Source: an uncultured Roseicyclus sp.
Lineage (GTDB): Bacteria > Pseudomonadota > Alphaproteobacteria > Rhodobacterales > Rhodobacteraceae
Length of the DNA stretch: 64,000 nt
Assembly (NCBI GenBank): GCA_947489665.1
Contig: CANLEH010000004.1
Coordinates: forward strand, 1-64,000
Direction of reading: 5' to 3'
Translations under genes and position numbers: made by a program
In this document: in pieces, positions 9,943 through 54,566 of the stretch
How positions within the stretch are numbered: position 1 is the first letter of the stretch
How the letters are laid out: the number at the start of each line of letters is the position of its first letter
The notes under the pieces: model-generated
What the model saw: only the letters and a program-made list of their open reading frames with translations
Told to the model about the DNA's origin: nothing
The model's database searches: none

Positions 9943-10356
9943 ATGTTGCAACCCAAACGGACAAAGTTCCGCAAGATGCACAAAGGCCGGATCAAAGGCG
10001 AAGCGAAGGGCGGGTCTGACCTGAACTTCGGCACCTTTGGTCTGAAAGCCCTGCAGCCCGAGCGCGTCACTGCGCGCCAAATCGAAGCCGCCCGTCGGGC
10101 CATGACGCGTCACATGAAGCGTCAGGGTCGCGTCTGGATCCGGATCTTCCCGGACACCCCGGTCACCTCCAAGCCCGTCGAAGTGCGTATGGGTAAGGGT
10201 AAGGGTTCAGTCGATTTCTGGGCCTGCAAGGTCAAGCCTGGCCGGATCATGTTCGAGATCGACGGTGTGTCGGAGCCGATCGCCCGTGAGGCCCTGCGCC
10301 TTGCTGCGATGAAGCTTCCGGTCAAGACCCGCACCGTGGTCCGCGAAGACTGGTAA
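9943..10356 (+). CDS. rplP: 50S ribosomal protein L16
   Basis: 137 residues, with [33 protein letters not shown] and [16 protein letters not shown]16 binds near the A-site tRNA elbow. GAGGAGG lies 9 nt before the ATG. It is the last gene of the second module: a terminator follows at 10446 and rpmC, its normal partner, is 5.6 kb away. Confidence 0.98.
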
Positions 10357-10445
10357 GGGTAGAGTCTGCCGCAGGCGGGCTCTCACCAGTGGCGCATTGG
10401 TGATTTCGCAGAAATTGCTCCAAGCCCACGCCGGTAAAGAAATCA

Positions 10446-10482
10446 GAAAGCCCCCGTCGACAGATCGGCGGGGGCTTTCCCT
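10446..10482 (+). terminator. Rho-independent terminator after rplP
   Basis: GAAAGCCCCCG and CGGGGGCTTTC form an 11-bp stem with a 12-base loop, followed by a weak pyrimidine-rich tail. It ends the second ribosomal module about 90 nt after rplP. Confidence 0.8.
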
Positions 10483-10516
10483 TGTCAGCTGTGCTGCTCT
10501 GGTGTCCCTTGGTGGA

Positions 10517-11032
10517 ATGGAACAGCTTGTCATCATACCGCGCCTGTCAGTCGGTCCGCTTGAATTCGGCACGAGCCAAGAGGCGGTCGCGGCGTTGCTT
10601 GGGCCGCCGCAGAACAGTTTCCGTATCGGCGGCGGTGGTGGTGTGTGCCAGATCTGGGATGGTTTGGCTTTTTCGTCCTGTGATTTCACGGAAGATCGCC
10701 TTGAGGCTCTCACCATCAACCGTAGCGTTGCAAAATCTGTTCTGCTTGGTGAAGTCGACCTGTTGCAGCAGCCACTGGATCAGATGCTGGCCGCACTGGA
10801 TCGAATGAACGGCGGCACCGATCAAATTCAGGGTGGGTCGCTTGCCTACGAGGAACTCGGGCTGGTCCTGAGCCAATTCGAGGATGCTGGGGCGCGAGAA
10901 TTGGTTTTGACCTCCCAAAGCATCGCAGCCGTTGAGCCGACACGGCCCATCGGGCTTCAGGGCGCGCTGGATTACTACCGGGCACAGAAGGGAACGGACC
11001 CCGCAGAAGATGCTTTCGGGCAATGGCCGTAG
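10517..11032 (+). CDS. Hypothetical cytoplasmic protein
   Basis: 171 residues, no signal peptide or membrane segment. The opening GPLEFGTSQEAVAALLGPP has the FG-x-s-x-x-E-V-x-x-x-L-G-P pattern of many small predicted immunity or assembly-type folds, followed by a Gly-rich GGGGGVCQIW and mostly amphipathic sequence. No family was recognised with confidence. The ATG at 10517 is chosen because the upstream part of the frame reads through the rplP terminator. First cargo gene after rplP, on the same strand. Confidence 0.6.
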   Translation: MEQLVIIPRLSVGPLEFGTSQEAVAALLGPPQNSFRIGGGGGVCQIWDGLAFSSCDFTEDRLEALTINRSVAKSVLLGEVDLLQQPLDQMLAALDRMNGGTDQIQGGSLAYEELGLVLSQFEDAGARELVLTSQSIAAVEPTRPIGLQGALDYYRAQKGTDPAEDAFGQWP

Positions 11033-11042
11033 TGTGCTGTGC

Positions 11043-11474
11043 CTAGCCCAACCGCACCTCTTCCAGATGGTTTTCGATGTGCATCAGGTGCGCCAGAGCG
11101 AACTGGTCCTTGCCGAGCGCGCCGAAGGCGAAGTGCGGGCGGAGCGCTCCGTTGAAGTCCCGGAAGGTTTCGAGGGACCTCACGAGACGATGAAGGCCTG
11201 CATCGGCTGACACGTCGCCGATGACTTCACCGGGGATCGGCTCATCAAGGCCGTGGCTCATCCGACCTCGCATCTTGAAGACTGTGAAGGCGAGTTTGCC
11301 AGCGGTCATCTGGAAGAGCTTCGGCTTCTCCTCCGGGTAGCCGGACATGGAGAACTCCACCCCTTGGGCGAGATGGCTGAAGGTGCGTCCCAGATCCCAG
11401 TCGCCAGTCGATTGGATGGCTGAAAGGTCCAGTTCGTCGAGGCGGCGAAACGCGGTGTCGAGGGCGTTGGTCAT
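11043..11474 (-). CDS. DUF1569 / DinB-like four-helix protein
   Basis: 143 residues, starting MTNALDTAFRRLDELD. WDLGRTFSHLAQGVEFSM and the C-terminal ALAHLMHIENHLEEV carry the spaced His residues of DUF1569-type DinB-like proteins, which form four-helix bundles that can hold a metal ion. The biochemical role is unknown; related enzymes include thiol S-transferases. A much longer frame exists upstream but overlaps the next gene. The neighbouring muramidase lies on the same strand 31 nt upstream. Confidence 0.65.
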   Translation of the reverse strand: MTNALDTAFRRLDELDLSAIQSTGDWDLGRTFSHLAQGVEFSMSGYPEEKPKLFQMTAGKLAFTVFKMRGRMSHGLDEPIPGEVIGDVSADAGLHRLVRSLETFRDFNGALRPHFAFGALGKDQFALAHLMHIENHLEEVRLG

Positions 11475-11505
11475 GGGGCCACTAGAGGCCGTCTGATTGT
11501 GCCGG

Positions 11506-12213
11506 TCAACCTGTGGGCCAGATCGCCTCCATCCCGCCGCTGAATTCGGCCCAAGACATCGTCGCGCGGTTGCCGGCGTAGCCTTGGTAGTAGGACCGTC
11601 CATTGGGGAGCGGCAGGCCGGCCCAGATGCGGGCGAGGTTGTGCATGAAGTCGCGGCGACCGAGTTCTCCCCCTTCGAACGCCTGCAGGCCTGCCTCGTC
11701 CAGCAGGACGGTTGCGAGGCTATCCTGCACCTCAGCCGTGAAGCGGACCTCCGGCCCATAGCCGCGGATCCGGGCGACGCGGCGCAGCGTGTCAGGGATG
11801 AACTGGTAGCGTCCGATGGCGTGGGGTTGGCCGGGGGTGGCGGTGATCCAGGCGTAAATCTCCCCAAGGGTCATCTGCGTGGGCGGACGCGGTGTGCGGA
11901 TGCGCGCGCCGTGCTGGACGGCGTCGTAGCCCGCTTGCCCGGCTTCAGCACGAGAAATCAAGGTGAGGAGCCGCGCGGTTGATTGGCCAACACCGGTGGG
12001 GGCGGGGGCGCGGACCGGAAAGGGCGCGAAGAAGCTGCCATCCTGTGTGCCCGCGAACAGTGATCCATTGATTGCGGTCGTGGAACCTAGGCCGCCTTCG
12101 ATCAGCGGTGCGGCTCGGGTGACGAGAGGCGCTACATCGGCCTTGGCCAGCCCTGCGATCAGGAAGATGAGCGTGAGGGGCAGGAAGAGTGCCCCGTAAA
12201 GCCGGTTTGCCAT
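11506..12213 (-). CDS. Exported lysozyme-like (GH104-type) muramidase
   Basis: 235 residues with an N-terminal hydrophobic signal (LFLPLTLIFLIAGLAKA). Residues about 85-235 resemble the phage-type lysozyme fold of the GH104 family: LISRAEAGQAGYDAVQHG supplies a Glu, and PHAIGRYQFIPDTL matches the diagnostic A-x-G-x-Y-Q-F segment. It would cleave peptidoglycan in the periplasm. The ATG at 12213 has GAGG 10 nt upstream; a TTG at 12222 is too close to it. No phage genes are near, so a host enzyme is more likely than a prophage remnant. Confidence 0.7.
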   Translation of the reverse strand: MANRLYGALFLPLTLIFLIAGLAKADVAPLVTRAAPLIEGGLGSTTAINGSLFAGTQDGSFFAPFPVRAPAPTGVGQSTARLLTLISRAEAGQAGYDAVQHGARIRTPRPPTQMTLGEIYAWITATPGQPHAIGRYQFIPDTLRRVARIRGYGPEVRFTAEVQDSLATVLLDEAGLQAFEGGELGRRDFMHNLARIWAGLPLPNGRSYYQGYAGNRATMSWAEFSGGMEAIWPTG

Positions 12214-12299
12214 TCTGGCCAAGCCTCAATCGTTCGTCTTGGGCGCAGCATGGCGGCAATATCTTTCCAAACCGTTGCCGCGCGCCTACACAAGCGCCC

Positions 12300-12920
12300 A
12301 TGGCTCAGATCAAATCCCTTTTCGCGACCCGACTTTATCACGCCAAGCTGGCCGAGTTCGGCCCGGCCGTGGATGGGGATGAGTTGATGGCCTCGTGCTT
12401 TTCCATCGCCGATGACGATGAGGCGGGGCAGGAATGGTGCGAGGAAAACGGGTTTCCGGGCTATACCTCTTACGCATCGCTGACGGACCTGCCGTGGCGG
12501 TTTCCGATTTTCGCGCAGGTGGTTGAGGCTCTGGACAAGCACGTTGCGGCGTTTGCGGAGGATCTGGAATTCGATCTGGAAGACCGCGCGCTCAAGCTGG
12601 AAGATATCTGGATCAACATCTTGCCCGAGGGGGGCATCCATACCTCTCATATCCATCCGCATTCTGTCATTTCGGGCACGACCTACGTGGCGGTGCCGCC
12701 GGGTGCGCGGTCGATCAAGCTGGAAGACCCGCGCCATGCGATGATGATGGCCGCGCCTGCGCGCAAGGCGGATGCGCGGGAGGAGTTGCGGGCCTTCGTC
12801 TACCCCAACCCGCAAGCCGGGGACGTACTGTTGTGGGAAAGCTGGCTGCGCCACGAAGTGCCCATGAACATGGATGAAGATGACCGGATTAGTGTCAGCT
12901 TCAATTACAGCTGGGCCTGA
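12300..12920 (+). CDS. 2OG-Fe(II) oxygenase of the TIGR02466 type
   Basis: 206 residues. SHIHPHSVISGTTYV (116-130) and WLRHEV (182-187) supply His ligands, and R197 in DRISVSFN is placed to bind 2-oxoglutarate. These match the putative 2OG-Fe(II) oxygenase family TIGR02466. The substrate is unknown. The next gene is a methyltransferase on the same strand, 69 nt downstream, which invites a link, but no pathway is known. Confidence 0.78.
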   Translation: MAQIKSLFATRLYHAKLAEFGPAVDGDELMASCFSIADDDEAGQEWCEENGFPGYTSYASLTDLPWRFPIFAQVVEALDKHVAAFAEDLEFDLEDRALKLEDIWINILPEGGIHTSHIHPHSVISGTTYVAVPPGARSIKLEDPRHAMMMAAPARKADAREELRAFVYPNPQAGDVLLWESWLRHEVPMNMDEDDRISVSFNYSWA

Positions 12921-12989
12921 AGGCTTTTCTTGCACGAGGACGTTGCCTCGTGTTCTGGTGCGCCAAACAAAAACAGGCGGAGCAGGCAC

Positions 12990-13649
12990 ATGGCGAGCGG
13001 AAACCCAATAACGTACCTCACGGAGGCATCGCGGCGAGAGAGCTTTGAGTTCTTCAAGGAGCATATGGAGCAGTCCATGCTGTTCCGAAACCAAGACAGA
13101 AATCGCGACTATGCAATCAACCGTGCGATCAAGAACGGGATCGAGGATGGTCTTTACGTCGAGTTCGGTGTTGCAGGTGGTGACGGCTCCCGCCGGTTCG
13201 GGGAGGCATTGAAGCCCCATGGCCTGGCGCTGACTGGCTTCGACAGTTTCGAAGGGTTGGAAGAGGATTGGACCGGCATTCAGACAGGCCGCGAGGCGGG
13301 CGCATTCACCCAAGGGGGAAAATTGCCGAAAGTGCCGGGCAATGTGACGCTGGTGAAGGGCTGGGTGCAGGACACGCTTCCGGACTATCTGAAGGATACT
13401 GGAAAAAGGCCGTTCGCCTTCGTGCATCTGGATATGGATACCTACACACCGACCGCTTATTCACTGAAGGCGATCAAGAAGCGGCTGGTGAAGGGAACGG
13501 TGATCCTGTTTGACGAGCTATATGGTTATCCCGGTTGGAAGCACCACGAATACAAGGCCCTGACCGAGGTGCTGAAGGAAGACGATTACCAATATATCAG
13601 CTTCTCGGTTGAGAGCGTGGCGATTGAGATATTGCGCAAGCCGAAATGA
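12990..13649 (+). CDS. TylF/MycF-like class I SAM-dependent methyltransferase
   Basis: 219 residues. YVEFGVAGGDGSRRF is SAM-binding motif I, LTGFDSFEGLEEDW is the motif II region seen in TylF/MycF-type O-methyltransferases, and HLDMDTYTPTAYSL followed by LFDELYGYPGW gives the metal-binding Asp residues. Likely a Mg2+-dependent O-methyltransferase acting on a small molecule or sugar. Start MASGNPIT at 12990 has GGCGGAG upstream. Confidence 0.78.
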   Translation: MASGNPITYLTEASRRESFEFFKEHMEQSMLFRNQDRNRDYAINRAIKNGIEDGLYVEFGVAGGDGSRRFGEALKPHGLALTGFDSFEGLEEDWTGIQTGREAGAFTQGGKLPKVPGNVTLVKGWVQDTLPDYLKDTGKRPFAFVHLDMDTYTPTAYSLKAIKKRLVKGTVILFDELYGYPGWKHHEYKALTEVLKEDDYQYISFSVESVAIEILRKPK

Positions 13650-13652
13650 TGG

Positions 13653-14270
13653 TCACTCGGCAGGAATGATTGCGTTTGGTGACTGCGACCGTCCCAGTGC
13701 GATGGCACCCAGGATCGCGGTGTAGAGTGTCAGCAGGTAGAGCGGATAGGCAATCAAGACGGGCTCCCATGCGCCTACGGCGAGGGTTGCGAGGGCCGAG
13801 GCGATCCAGAACGTGACCCAGGTCGAGAGTGTCTCGGACTGAGGGTCACAATAGGCTTTCGCTACGGTAAGGGCTCCACCCAGCAGGCTGATCGAGATGG
13901 TGATGCCGAGGGCGTAGGCTGAATTGGCGGTGAAGTACCACAAGATAAGGCCGAAGGCCGCAAGGGCGAGGACCGCCCAATCGCCGGGGCGCAGGAAACG
14001 GCCAACACCACAGATGATGGACATTGCGAAGACAAGGATCGTGCCGCCGACTTGGACGACTGCAAAGCCGAGGGAGGCCATGGCACCTTCGCTGATTTGC
14101 GAGGCCAGCGCGACGGAGCCCAGGATGGACCAGATCAGCCAGCACGCGCGCTGGGGCTGCGTGCGGCCGGTGATGATGTCGCGAAGGTACGGCAGGTAGC
14201 CCACGGTGCTGAGCGCGGCAGAGGCGAGGCCGAGCCAGATCAATACGTCGATGGAAACCCAAAGGTCCAT
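13653..14270 (-). CDS. Multi-pass membrane protein, PQ-loop-like
   Basis: 205 residues with about seven hydrophobic segments. The first pair (LIWLGLASAALSTVGYLPYL, then RTQPQRACWLIW) resembles a PQ-loop/SWEET repeat with the Pro-Gln dipeptide at a helix end. Small-solute transport is possible but unproven. Convergent with the methyltransferase gene, with 3 nt between stops. Confidence 0.6.
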   Translation of the reverse strand: MDLWVSIDVLIWLGLASAALSTVGYLPYLRDIITGRTQPQRACWLIWSILGSVALASQISEGAMASLGFAVVQVGGTILVFAMSIICGVGRFLRPGDWAVLALAAFGLILWYFTANSAYALGITISISLLGGALTVAKAYCDPQSETLSTWVTFWIASALATLAVGAWEPVLIAYPLYLLTLYTAILGAIALGRSQSPNAIIPAE

Positions 14271-14361
14271 GAAAGCCCCGAAACCAATACGTCAAATCAA
14301 TAGGGTGACGTTAAGGGAAACGGGACGTTCGGGTAGTGCGGGAAACCTTACTCTCAGACGA

Positions 14362-15003
14362 TCAGATGTGCCCGAGATAGTAGCCGATGGCCTCGGCGAG
14401 TTCCGTTTCCTCGTAGCCGAAATGGGAGCGGATGACGGATTCGAGGTGCCGGAAGATGGCGGCGGCCTTACCGAAGTTTTCGTCCGTGGGGTCAGCGATG
14501 AGTGCGTCGGCGGCGCGGTCGAGGCGGATGAGGAGCTCGTGCACGACCTCATGCTCGGCCTTCAGCTTGGCGACGATCTCGGCGAAAAGGCCGGAGCCTG
14601 CGGCCTCGATCCGGGGGAACATGTCGGCGGCCTCGATATCGTGGTGCATCATCAGGATGCGGCATTCTTGCCCACAGAGGGAGCCAAAGGCGCGCAGGTT
14701 TTCGGACATGTCGAGGGACAGGACGATCCGCTTGAGATGCTCGGGCGGGGCGTCCCCGGCCTCGATCCGGGCAAGGACGGCACTGAGGCGGGCCATCTCC
14801 ATCAGGTAGTGACGGTGGATGAGGGCGAGTTGCTTGCCCTGTTGGCGGTGCTGGTCGGTTGCCTCGGGGACCGGCGGCGGCGTGGGGCGGGCGGCCTCGT
14901 CGAGGGTTAGGGCGGTGAGCGGGAGGGTGGAGAGGTTGGGCATGGGGAGAGTTTTGACTACGATGGAGTTATCGAGAGTGGGTGGACGCAACTGCACCAG
15001 CAT
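14362..15003 (-). CDS. Hemerythrin HHE-domain protein
   Basis: 213 residues. After a proline-rich N-terminus (about 1-50) come the di-iron ligand positions of hemerythrin: H63/H65 (LIHRHYLME), H120-H121 with E125 (MMHHDIEAADMFP), H151 and H155 (AEHEVVHELL) and H194 with E198 (SHFGYEE). Such proteins bind O2 or NO, or sense oxygen or iron. Cytosolic; no partner domain. The start at 15003 has GGAG 13 nt upstream, slightly far. Confidence 0.85.
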   Translation of the reverse strand: MLVQLRPPTLDNSIVVKTLPMPNLSTLPLTALTLDEAARPTPPPVPEATDQHRQQGKQLALIHRHYLMEMARLSAVLARIEAGDAPPEHLKRIVLSLDMSENLRAFGSLCGQECRILMMHHDIEAADMFPRIEAAGSGLFAEIVAKLKAEHEVVHELLIRLDRAADALIADPTDENFGKAAAIFRHLESVIRSHFGYEETELAEAIGYYLGHI

Positions 15004-15077
15004 GTGTTCTGCTTACTCCAGAGTGGGCGCACTGTCGGTGAAAGAACGGATGCTTATCGAGCGAAGAGGAGCCAAGA

Positions 15078-15803
15078 TTGACCAGGCTTGAAAAAATGCT
15101 GAGCGTTGGCCTCGAAGGCTGGGTGAACTTCGAGAGGGCGTGTAAGCGAACTGAGTTGTTGAGCGAAGCCTACTTGTCTTTGCCTATCGCACAAATCCTT
15201 AACTCACATACCGGCAAACGAGTAGTTTCTGAATTTCGTCATCCGATTTTGGCACCACTGTCTTCTACCTCTGGAAGACGACCGACAACTGATTTCGTTG
15301 TCTGTGATCACGACGATGCAATTGCCGTTGCGATTGAGTCCAAATGGGTTGGCCGTTCGAGTCCTACTCCAAAAATGATTTTGTGGGACTTGATGCGCTT
15401 GGAGCTTATCCGCCGTGAATTTGACGCAGAGTGCTTCTTCATTATGGCAGGAACAAAGAAGAAGCTTGAAGCCCTATCCAACAAAGCCGGGTTCAAGGAC
15501 AAAAAGTCCAAAGGTCGTGGGCGTCCCTTGCTGAGGCTTGACGCCAATGCTCTCAATCGTGTGCGGCTGGACTCCACAGATGTCTTTCGCAGGAAAATTC
15601 TCAGAGAAATCTACAGCAAGTATCAGGAGGTAGAATTCCCAACAGCACTTGCCACGAGACGTGCATCGCCATTGATGACTGAGGCCAAGAACCGCGCGTA
15701 TCAGGTGTATGTATGGAGGCTTATTGATACGACTGCTTCATTGGCAAAGCCAACAAACAGTATTCATTTTCATATTAACCCGGCGGATCGAAAAAAAGCC
15801 TAG
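15078..15803 (+). CDS. Low-GC orphan protein with a PD-(D/E)XK nuclease-like core
   Basis: 241 residues from a TTG preceded by GAGGAG at 6 nt. Residues 52-89 read like a restriction-endonuclease core: E52 (SEFRHP), D72 (TTDFVVCD), then a hydrophobic strand ending E87-S-K89 (AVAIESKWV). No methylase or antitoxin adjoins it. Two 60-base lines I counted inside the gene are 43% and 45% GC, far below the surrounding ribosomal genes. It may be a nuclease of an anti-phage or toxin type, or a decayed restriction enzyme; the assignment rests on motif spacing only. Confidence 0.6.
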   Translation: MTRLEKMLSVGLEGWVNFERACKRTELLSEAYLSLPIAQILNSHTGKRVVSEFRHPILAPLSSTSGRRPTTDFVVCDHDDAIAVAIESKWVGRSSPTPKMILWDLMRLELIRREFDAECFFIMAGTKKKLEALSNKAGFKDKKSKGRGRPLLRLDANALNRVRLDSTDVFRRKILREIYSKYQEVEFPTALATRRASPLMTEAKNRAYQVYVWRLIDTTASLAKPTNSIHFHINPADRKKA

Positions 15804-15827
15804 TCGGGTTCCGCTCGGAACTACCGC

Positions 15828-15856
15828 TTGCCAACCGCCCCTAACCCCCCTATACG
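15828..15856 (+). promoter_or_regulatory. Predicted sigma70 promoter of the rpmC module
   Basis: TTGCCA (15828-15833), 17 nt, TATACG (15851-15856), 83 nt before rpmC. The hexamers and spacing are the same as for the rpsJ promoter. It restarts ribosomal transcription just after the low-GC cargo gene. Confidence 0.78.
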
Positions 15857-15939
15857 GCCCCCTCATTCACCGAACTCCACGGGAATCAGCGTAACCCGCC
15901 CATGCGGCGCGCCCTCGTGATGTTGAAAGGAAAAAGGCG

Positions 15940-16146
15940 ATGAACGCCCAGGAACTGCGTGACAAGACGCCGGACCAGCTTCGTGATGAGCTGACGGCGC
16001 TCAAGAAGGAGGCCTTCAACCTCCGCTTCCAGCAGGCCACCGGCCAGCTCGAAAACACTGCTCGTATGCGTCAGGTTCGCCGTGACGCCGCGCGCGTCAA
16101 GACCATTCTGAACGAAAAAGCGGCCGCTGCCGCAGCGGAGGCCTGA
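15940..16146 (+). CDS. rpmC: 50S ribosomal protein L29
   Basis: 68 residues, with the L29 pattern [16 protein letters not shown] and [20 protein letters not shown]; the tail is Ala-rich. L29 sits by the tunnel exit next to L23. First gene of the third module (rpmC to rpmD); GAAAGG precedes the ATG. Confidence 0.97.
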
Positions 16147-51841: not shown

Positions 51842-52734
51842 TCCAAACATGAAACCCATAAAGAAATTCGTGAGACAATGGCGTCTTGGGGCTGAGAAAT
51901 GGCCCGTAGCCAATGCATTTTGGGATGGGTGATGTTTGTTTCCCTGAAAACCCTCCCTCTCGGTCGAGTTGTGAAGCCGATTTTCCGTGCAAGTGAGGCC
52001 CGAAACGAGTCAGTCGGTTTGGGCCGAATGCAGATGGTTGCCGATCCGAGTTTCCGTTTCATCGTGCAGTTCGGACAAGGCATGTCTCTAGGACAAACTA
52101 GCACGATGCCTATCTTGACGCTCACAGCAGCCATGAAGTGATGCAGGTAGTTCGTAAACGGAACCTAGAGACGACAGAGCAAACGGACCGGTATTTTGCT
52201 CATGCTCGTGTTCCTCATCCAGATTAGGGGTTTGAGATTCGTTTGGAAGAACTTAGCGGCGGAGTTCGGTTGGTCTATCATCTCTGGATCCTCGAAAATG
52301 GTAAGGAAAAATATAACTGATTCAATATTCTAGTACCCTTCTTGTGGGGCTAAGGCTTGTCGCGCGCTGGGATACAGAAGGCGCTAGACGCGGCGATTTC
52401 TAGGCTCCAAAAAAACTGCTCGATTGAGAATTGAGAGCTGCGCGCAGTGGTAGTCACACGGGACTGCAAAGAGTGAGCTAACCGAGAGGACGCTCACCTT
52501 TTGGCGCGCTTAGGCAAGATGCAGAAACGAAGCGCCTGAACATAGGTCGATGCGCGACCTAGATTTTGGCTCTTTCTGTCTAATAGTCAGAAGGCACAAC
52601 CAATCTTGCTCTTAAACAAGGGACTCGATTCGACAAACCGGAACGCAGCCCAAGACGCTTGGAAAAAGATATTGTGTGGCGTAAGCATCCGCGACTACGT
52701 CCTTGAATCCGGACCTTGAGGCGGTACTCACTGC
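51842..52734 (+). other. Gene-poor stretch between tRNA-Arg and the polysaccharide locus
   Basis: No convincing gene in 893 nt. GC is lower than the flanks in places (40% in the line 52261-52320). The frame at 51899-52141 and its antisense partners derive from the tRNA and have no ribosome site. It may be a decayed island border. No terminal repeat of the tRNA 3' end was seen inside the window. Confidence 0.7.
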
Positions 52735-53769
52735 ATGAAACTTGAAGGCGCAACCGTCCTGATCACTGGCGGCACGGGATCATTTGGCAAGACAATGCTC
52801 CGTTCCTTGTTGGGCGATGGCGCCGAACAGGTTCGCGTGTTCAGCCGTGACGAGGAAAAACAGGACGCTCTGCGGGTCAGCCTGCGTGATGACCGGGTCC
52901 GCTACTACATAGGTGATATTCGGGACCGTTCGAGCATCGCGAACGCGATGAAGGGCGTTGACTGCGTGTTTCATGCTGCAGCGTTGAAACAGGTGCCCTC
53001 ATGCGAATTTTTTCCCATGGAGGCGGTTCGCACAAACGTTTTGGGCTCAGAAAACGTTATCCGCTCGGCCGTTGAAGCGAAGGTAAAAAGCCTTGTCTGC
53101 CTTTCCACTGACAAGGCGGTTTTTCCGGTGAATGCAATGGGCCTTTCCAAGGCCATGATGGAAAAGCTGGCCCAGTGTGTGGCACGCGAATTGGGCGATC
53201 AGAGCGAGACCACGATCTCATGCGTTCGCTACGGCAACGTAATGTATTCGCGTGGCTCAGCCATACCACTCTTCGTCAAACAACTGAAAACGGGCAAGCC
53301 GATTACGTTAACCGAACCGACGATGACTCGCTTTCTCATGCCGCTCCGAGACTCTGTGGAGTTGGTGCGGTACGCGTTCGAGCATGCCAATCAAGGCGAC
53401 CTCTTCATCAAGAAAGCACCGGCTGCGACGATCCTGAATCTTGTTGAGGCGCTGAAACAATTGTTCGACGTACCGGATCATCCGATTGAACTCATTGGAT
53501 GGCGGCACGCGGAAAAGCTCTACGAGACGCTGGCTTCCGCGCAGGAATTGGCGACTTCGGAGGATATGGGCGATTACTACCGCATCCGCCTCGACATCCG
53601 CGATCTGAACTACAAGCCGTTCTTCAGCGAAGGCGATGACAAACTCGTCGTTCAGGAAGACTACCATTCCCACAATACCGAACGTCTCAACGTTTCTGAG
53701 ATAAAAAAGCTGCTTCTGAGCTTGCCAGAGGTGCAGGCGGAGTTGGCTGGGTGGTCGGCTTCGCGCTAA
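52735..53769 (+). CDS. capE: UDP-GlcNAc 4,6-dehydratase/5-epimerase, CapE/FnlA/WbjB type
   Basis: 344 residues. Rossmann motif LITGGTGSFGKTML, HAAALKQVPSCEF and STDKAVFPVNAMGLSKAMME, where Met stands in the YxxxK position, as in CapE/FlaA1-type dehydratases. First step to UDP-L-FucNAc. A weak GAGG lies 13 nt before the ATG. First gene of the polysaccharide locus. Confidence 0.92.
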   Translation: MKLEGATVLITGGTGSFGKTMLRSLLGDGAEQVRVFSRDEEKQDALRVSLRDDRVRYYIGDIRDRSSIANAMKGVDCVFHAAALKQVPSCEFFPMEAVRTNVLGSENVIRSAVEAKVKSLVCLSTDKAVFPVNAMGLSKAMMEKLAQCVARELGDQSETTISCVRYGNVMYSRGSAIPLFVKQLKTGKPITLTEPTMTRFLMPLRDSVELVRYAFEHANQGDLFIKKAPAATILNLVEALKQLFDVPDHPIELIGWRHAEKLYETLASAQELATSEDMGDYYRIRLDIRDLNYKPFFSEGDDKLVVQEDYHSHNTERLNVSEIKKLLLSLPEVQAELAGWSASR

Positions 53770-53795
53770 CGCTTTCAACCGAAGGATTTTCGGCA

Positions 53796-54566
53796 ATGAC
53801 AAATCAGACAGGGACAGGCCTCATCACGAACCAGAAGTCCATAGCGTTGCGCATCAAGCGCGTTGTGGGGCATCGGGTATGGCGGGTCATCACCCGGCCG
53901 ATTGCGTTTGGCTTGAAGCTGATGCCGCAGTCATTGGTGTTCAAAGTTGGCATGGCTTTGCGCAAGAACAGCTATCCCTATTGCCTGATCACCGAGGGCG
54001 ACACCGCAATTCAAGTTGGTGCACCCGCCGACCTGTTGCGCATTGGACGTTCACGGGCCGTCTTCTTTGCGATGCGGGTCGGTGCTTCGGGTCATGTCTT
54101 TATCTTCGAACCGGAACCCAATTCCGCCAAGGCCATGCGCGACTATTTGCAACGCAACGGGATGAAAGACCGCGCCACGGTGGTCGAAAAGGGGTGTTGG
54201 TCCTCGGATCGGGTATTGCGTTTTTGGTCCAATCCAGATCATCCGGCCTCTAACCTTTTGGAAGACGTCTCAAAATGGGACGAAACGGAATTGCGCGCGC
54301 GTCAGTATCAGCCCAGCGAGGTGCCGGTCACAACGATCGACGGCGTTCTGGACGCGGCGAATGTCACCACCGTCAAGATGGTCAGCATCACGACAAACGG
54401 ATCGGAAGATGAGATCCTGTCGGGGGCAGAAAAAACGCTGGCCAAGGCCGACTACCTTGCGTTGGCAGAAACCGGTGAAGAGGTTCACGCGCTCGCCCAG
54501 AGTGTCGGCTTTCGCAACATGGCGCTGGATGACCGTGGCTTCACGGCGGCCCGCATCGTAGAGTAG
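53796..54566 (+). CDS. FkbM-like methyltransferase with altered SAM motif
   Basis: 256 residues. AIQVGAPADLLRIG (71-84) sits where FkbM proteins have DVGANxG, so the SAM-binding motif I has changed (VGAP). VFIFEPEPNSAKAM follows the family pattern, and the C-terminal VTTIDGVLDA and VKMVSITTNGSEDEILSGA also fit. It lies between the first two FucNAc genes, so it may methylate a sugar of the glycan, or be inactive. AAGGA precedes the ATG by 10 nt. Confidence 0.65.
   Translation: MTNQTGTGLITNQKSIALRIKRVVGHRVWRVITRPIAFGLKLMPQSLVFKVGMALRKNSYPYCLITEGDTAIQVGAPADLLRIGRSRAVFFAMRVGASGHVFIFEPEPNSAKAMRDYLQRNGMKDRATVVEKGCWSSDRVLRFWSNPDHPASNLLEDVSKWDETELRARQYQPSEVPVTTIDGVLDAANVTTVKMVSITTNGSEDEILSGAEKTLAKADYLALAETGEEVHALAQSVGFRNMALDDRGFTAARIVE

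Follow-up and report, generated by a model that had tools for sequence, protein, structure and literature searches.

What is an open reading frame (ORF) of unusually low GC content doing between the ribosomal protein genes rplP and rpmC of an uncultured Roseicyclus species, and what might its product do? The locus lies in a window of 64,000 nucleotides (contig CANLEH010000004.1, positions 1 to 64,000), which is the whole stretch of DNA that was analyzed. An earlier note on this DNA had described the ORF as an orphan, nuclease-like gene inside the ribosomal operon and had suggested that it could be a stand-alone defense or abortive-infection nuclease. The sequence comparisons presented here suggest that ORF 15078-15803 probably encodes a virus-defense enzyme and is not part of the ribosome machinery.

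A foreign gene between rplP and rpmC

The features of the locus are as follows.

9943 to 10356, forward strand: rplP (ribosomal protein L16), one border of the variable slot, named by reading
14362 to 14943, reverse strand: hemerythrin-domain protein, the divergent left neighbor, identified with Pfam
14944 to 15827, no strand: foreign insert carrying the ORF, delimited by the ends of DNA homology to same-genus genomes
15067 to 15071, forward strand: AGGAG ribosome-binding site with a 6-nt spacer to the TTG, read from the sequence
15078 to 15803, forward strand: nuclease-like ORF of 241 codons with a TTG start, of no known family
15828 to 15856, forward strand: promoter-like element of rpmC, TTGCCA-17 nt-TATACG, conserved in the genus
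15940 to 16146, forward strand: rpmC (ribosomal protein L29), the right neighbor, named by reading

ORF 15078-15803 is a real gene, and it is of foreign, low-GC origin. Its coordinates, its 241 codons, its TTG start and the AGGAG upstream of it are exactly as first described, and the two lines of sequence for which a GC content of 43-45% had been reported came to 43.3% and 45.0%. The GC content of the whole ORF is 48.3% compared to 59.5% for the window, and the lowest value among 726-base stretches that do not overlap it is 49.7%, at 51912. That stretch belongs to a second low-GC region of the window (51900-54566), where the ORF 3' of it (52735-53769) looks nucleotide-sugar dehydratase-like and the next one (53751-54566) FkbM-type methyltransferase-like, both by eye only. 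The window protein had no match in Pfam, PADLOC, NCBIfam or PHROGs even at E 10. A search of PDB sequences gave nothing credible for it (one row, E 0.64), and the four-row family profile returned only two rows there, at E 0.43 or worse. As a control on PADLOC, ten ordinary genes of the window were scanned at E 0.01, and none of them had a match. A promoter scan detected no sigma-70-like site around the ORF, which means little because the same scan missed the conserved rpmC element. The repeats flanking the ORF are short and chance-like, and no target-site duplication was seen.

The end of rplP (10356) and the start of rpmC (15940) are 5.6 kb apart, and unrelated genes lie on both strands between them, including a DUF1569 gene, a 2OG-Fe(II) oxygenase, a TylF-like methyltransferase, the hemerythrin-domain gene and others. 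Homology on the left to G006, the sole other genome with the same left flank and hemerythrin start, stops at 14947, and G006 has a different ORF of 53% GC at the position of the insert. In all 12 other genomes of the genus, DNA homology to the window restarts at 15822-15863 and the content to the left of that point differs. With the last gene in common (2OG, TylF or the gene at 13653) as the starting point, rpmC is 248 bp away in three of these genomes and 700-2,798 bp away in the other nine. Among nine cargo proteins tested, a sample that left out the ORFs of L030, L033 and L039 and the second ORF of L032, there were two SUKH-1 proteins, one BrnA antitoxin, one FkbM methyltransferase, one LysR regulator and four proteins without a family. 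The gap at 10357-15939 (L028-L039 in the relatives) is a variable cargo slot of the genus that accepts foreign genes. The window gene itself is present as a single copy in 1 of the 13 genomes and is absent from the 12 others. Because the flanking homology breaks off and the cargo differs across the genus, the ORF can be assigned to an insert of ~0.9 kb, and this insert is positioned so that the rpmC element stays intact. Two side observations concern the slot in other genomes. The hemerythrin gene of G006 looks truncated or replaced, as the match to the 213-aa hemerythrin ORF is confined there to residues 20-80 (L036 1375-1557). The two SUKH-1 proteins sit in two different genomes, and one of them matches the PADLOC model PDC-M40A as well.

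The TTGC, the 17-nt spacing and the TAT of the promoter-like element are kept at the same place 5' of rpmC in all 13 genomes of the genus, and because of this conservation an independent transcription of the ribosomal genes that follow the slot is probably possible. The earlier description of the gene as lying inside the ribosomal operon is correct as to position and otherwise misleading, because the gap is a variable cargo slot that holds unrelated genes in both orientations and because rpmC is preceded by its own conserved promoter-like element. The absence of an adjacent methylase or antitoxin, also remarked on earlier, was confirmed to the extent that none of the seven neighbors scanned with Pfam belongs to a DNA methylase or antitoxin family. 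The TylF-like methyltransferase, which is of the small-molecule kind, is 1.4 kb from the ORF. The gaps around the ORF measure 134 bp to the hemerythrin start and 24 bp to the rpmC element, into which short unannotated peptides could fit.

A rare family of distant relatives

Five distant relatives of the window protein were found (G147, G755, G1044, L041 and L042), and their identity to it is 19-27%. When the window protein was searched against 61 relatives at E 0.001, it matched only itself. One clear relative, G147, was present in 394 genomes of the bacterial family; apart from the protein itself, this search gave seven rows with E values of 0.1 or lower, and L007, L008 and L009 were left out of the reading. 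Profile searches found G755 in 385 genomes of the class and G1044 in 398 genomes of the phylum, the weak row L014 of the latter search being left out of the reading. Further or overlapping sets of 198, 39 and 350 genomes returned only G1044, G755 and G1044 again, respectively. Of eight scans of viral contigs, one found L041, two found L042, one gave a hit that was rejected and four gave nothing. The L041 member is 79% identical to the G1044 member and the L042 member is about 63-64% identical to the G755 member, so that the six family members amount to about four lineages. The family is rare within the sets searched. Plasmid and phage record collections held no match for the members tried or for the whole L041 stretch, E. 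coli genomes held no match to the DNA of the G1044 member, and neither the L041 nor the L042 member matched a PADLOC model at E 0.1. A literature search by words rather than by sequence found no paper on this nuclease-like family.

Several other candidates were rejected. Read by eye, L003 proved to be a permease-like ORF, L006 a TRAP-transporter-like ORF and L005 a region without a matching ORF, and L012 was rejected after reading as well. L043 has a short peptide in common with the family but no ExK motif. L002, from Azonexus, is a DUF2726 protein instead of a member, and it was all that a scan of genome contigs found. Matches of the G147 member to AdeR (E 0.085) and of the L042 member to a VapB-type antitoxin model (E 0.053) were below the cut-off and were read as chance, as were two unrelated model matches of the G755 member (E 0.018 and 0.094).

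Conserved residues, profile comparison and fold

The six-row alignment has ten invariant columns out of 241 (W15, E30, D72, E87, K89, T97, D104, L108, G125 and W213). The spacing of a PD-(D/E)XK core had been attributed to E52, D72, E87 and K89; the last three are invariant in all six members, whereas E52 is not conserved and E30 is the conserved acidic residue upstream. The codons concerned, all defined on the six-row alignment, are the following.

15165 to 15167, forward strand: codon of E30, invariant in six of six
15291 to 15293, forward strand: codon of D72, invariant in six of six, the candidate metal-binding aspartate
15336 to 15344, forward strand: codons of E87-S88-K89, the ExK motif, with E and K invariant in six of six

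D72 was misplaced in a two-row MAFFT alignment and was aligned in BLASTP. The motif alone proves little because its bare form, D-x(10-20)-[DE]-x-K, is found in 12 of the 63 window ORFs that do not overlap and have at least 100 aa. If all positions are equally likely to be invariant, the chance that D72, E87 and K89 all fall within ten invariant columns out of 241 is 5e-5. Additionally, the comparison of the G1044 and L041 genes gave a dN of 0.135 and a dS of 1.25, a value above 1 and so imprecise, and the resulting ratio of ~0.11 points to purifying selection on the protein in this pair, as distinct from the window copy. For the second close pair (G755 and L042), dS was not obtained.

Comparison profiles were built from genomes of the bacterial family for DUF2726 (five sequences), Mrr and SduA (a single sequence), with GNAT as a contrast; Mrr and SduA are presumed here to be REase-fold families. 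In hhalign, the six-row profile scored 30.9 over 73 columns against DUF2726 with a probability of only 25.5%. This score is above all 60 column shuffles (maximum 17.05) and above the reversed profile (8.8), and the alignment puts E30, D72 and E87 onto the E, D and E of DUF2726. The scores for Mrr (12.2) and GNAT (8.4) were inside their own shuffle ranges, and that for the unshuffled, one-sequence SduA profile (12.8) was under its reversed control (15.7). DUF2726 is described as a REase-fold DNase that is fused to an AbiJ N-terminal or abortive-infection domain (PMC3710099). The nuclease-like reading is supported because D72, E87 and K89 are kept across very diverged relatives and because of this profile match, and on such sequence evidence the nuclease ancestry of the family appears fairly well supported.

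AlphaFold gave a pLDDT of 39.6 for the window protein from a single sequence and a pLDDT of 40.4 with a pTM of 0.42 from three sequences. Both low-confidence models contain two helices, strands at ~72-78 and 82-88, a helix at 98-115 and a strand at ~119-124, and the single-sequence model alone adds a strand at 49-54; this order roughly resembles an alpha-beta-beta-beta-alpha-beta core. Foldseek with the weak model returned nothing at E 0.001 or better and ranked GNAT at the top. VIA-align with the weak model returned Tdp2 and DNase I (Z up to 7.3), a splicing endonuclease (6.2) and archaeal Hjc resolvases (4.8-5.9), all of them short of a Z of 8; for lower values the tool cautions that the arrangement may be a common one. 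The models being poor, these fold searches would neither support nor exclude a PD-(D/E)XK fold. Structure prediction and a fold search had been suggested as a check for a four-stranded nuclease core: the order of strands and helices roughly fits, the fold searches are mixed, and such a core is not demonstrable in two models of low confidence.

Genomic surroundings of the family

Four of the six members lie within integrase elements or viral contigs. The L041 gene comes directly after a phage integrase at the start of a viral contig, with a PrtN-like gene beyond it; the single neighbor scanned with PADLOC gave no match. In the viral contig L042 the member is preceded by a RelA_SpoT gene, a DUF5131 gene and a third gene, and all three match PADLOC models named PDC and are read as candidate defense systems. 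The third gene, which is assumed here to be TcmP-like, had only a sub-threshold GMT-wHTH match in Pfam. The G1044 member belongs to an island.

L045 7084 to 19425: ssrA-integrase island of G1044, with a PD-Lambda-4 pair and a partial PD-T7-1-like gene

The order in this island is the tmRNA (ssrA) gene, an integrase, a 410-aa gene, the nuclease-like member and, 3.7 kb on, the PD-Lambda-4 pair. PADLOC matched three of the five neighbors scanned and did not match the other two. The B protein of the pair matched over the full profile, the match of the A protein began at profile position 84 and ran to the last position, 1283, and the 410-aa gene has a weak partial match to PD-T7-1 (E 1.6e-5). This last gene was rejected as a family member as it has no resemblance to the family. 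The G755 member is adjacent to a VapE-like gene with an integrase 6 kb off, and two of ten proteins of that element have weak PADLOC matches. The G147 member (L046 9472-10206) has a GC content of 43% within a context of 62% and lies tail to tail with rpoD (named by reading), with an overlap of 33 nt in which its last codons are the complement of the rpoD 3' end. Across the family the members have 43-48% GC in contexts of 47-62%, the contrast being small for G1044 and L042 (contexts of 48% and 47%).

An all-against-all comparison of frames of at least 50 aa within 5 kb found no neighbor common to the six contexts; its four between-context matches were all antisense inside the nuclease genes themselves. 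Because no neighbor within 5 kb is common to the six contexts, the protein seems to act alone, which agrees with the stand-alone nuclease proposed in the earlier note.

Comparison with known systems

The family resembles DUF2726 (PF10881) in having conserved E, D and E residues in the same order and register, and the window protein has a short local match to the Azonexus DUF2726 protein (L002). However, the Pfam model gives no match to the window protein even at E 10, two aligned DUF2726 proteins (L051 and L002) lack the K of ExK, and the present family has W15, D104, L108 and G125 as invariant residues. Unlike a Type II restriction-modification system, ORF 15078-15803 has no adjacent cognate DNA methylase.

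A functional selection in E. coli is reported to include 11 defense systems with DNA-binding or DNA-cleaving parts that are often REase-like, only one of which has a methylase; 7 of the 11 give direct immunity, and integrases are near several (PMC9519451). The likeness to that set is that its genes were unannotated, have a small REase-like region, mostly lack a methylase and are often near integrases or prophages. The difference is that the window protein has no match in PADLOC, which includes at least the PD-T7-1 and PD-Lambda-4 models. P4-like elements are described as carrying small defense slots of high turnover beside the integrase (PMC9122126). Such P2/P4-like hotspots are cargo loci between conserved genes. 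The site where the L041 member sits is comparable, and the rplP-rpmC slot is similar in form, but the window slot is flanked by ribosomal genes of the chromosome instead of being part of a phage, and it holds mixed cargo. By analogy with these two sources, the present family would behave genetically in much the same way as their defense cargo.

What the gene may do

On balance, and with modest confidence, the gene is taken to be a stand-alone PD-(D/E)XK-type nuclease of a rare, unnamed family that is carried as mobile anti-phage cargo; here we infer the fold, DNA as the substrate and the defense role. The family would move in prophages, satellites and islands, and in this genome it would have landed in a cargo slot that precedes the rpmC promoter. 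E30, D72, E87 and K89 would form a metal-dependent site that cuts the DNA of incoming phages or rival elements. The cutting would take place without any methylase, and the cell may be spared by recognition of modified or replicating phage DNA or by activity during infection only. The mode could be direct restriction or the killing of the infected cell (abortive infection). A defense role, as first suggested for this gene, is plausible by association with the integrase-proximal site in the viral contig L041, the candidate defense genes of L042 and the PD-Lambda-4 pair of G1044. That association does not extend to every member, since defense or candidate defense genes were found near only two of the six (L042 and G1044), in scans that covered neighbors of all members but the G147 copy, and the window copy has none. 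A broader reading, which is held more tentatively, is that the family constitutes an unnamed single-gene anti-phage system. This would be a PD-(D/E)XK DNase of ~215-245 aa, without a methylase, helicase or partner, that is spread through prophage integrase sites, satellites and islands in at least two classes of one phylum (presumably the Alpha- and Gammaproteobacteria) and is also found as chromosomal cargo by ribosomal and sigma-factor genes.

The alternative that survives best, an unlikely one, is that the protein is a mobile element's own DNA-processing nuclease, such as a Holliday-junction resolvase or a recombination or repair enzyme, that was left behind or captured and has no defense role. 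The presence of members in viral contigs or integrase elements would fit this, as would the archaeal Hjc among the VIA-align rows, which were obtained with a poor model. However, L041 adjoins an integrase and L042 and G1044 adjoin defense-like genes rather than a recognized replication or recombination module, there was no PHROG match, and the family is rare in the sets searched.

It is more improbable still that the protein is not a nuclease and that the residue match is a coincidence. The frequency of the bare motif among window ORFs speaks for coincidence, as does the poor model, which ranks GNAT and EEP-type nucleases first, together with the low hhalign probability for DUF2726. Against this, D72, E87 and K89 are all among the ten invariant columns, and the DUF2726 match exceeds every shuffle while the GNAT match is at noise level. 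Very unlikely is the possibility that the gene was acquired and now lies inert in this genome, intact but not expressed, which would agree with a single copy missing from the rest of the genus and with a region where the promoter scan found no sigma-70-like site; yet the full-length frame, the ribosome-binding site and all invariant residues are kept, and that scan was also blind to the rpmC element. Least probable is a selfish endonuclease of the free-standing homing type, whose spread would depend on cuts near conserved housekeeping genes, since, although two members are next to strongly conserved genes (rpmC for the window copy, rpoD for the G147 copy), four are in integrase elements or viral contigs, the varied cargo of the rpmC slot indicates that no special site is needed, and only 1 of 13 same-genus genomes has the gene.

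If the reading as mobile anti-phage cargo is right, a small single-gene nuclease family that is absent from the four curated libraries searched would join the candidate phage-defense enzymes, and the candidate catalytic residues of the family would have been named. For the genus itself, the rplP-rpmC gap takes foreign genes while rpmC retains its own promoter-like element.
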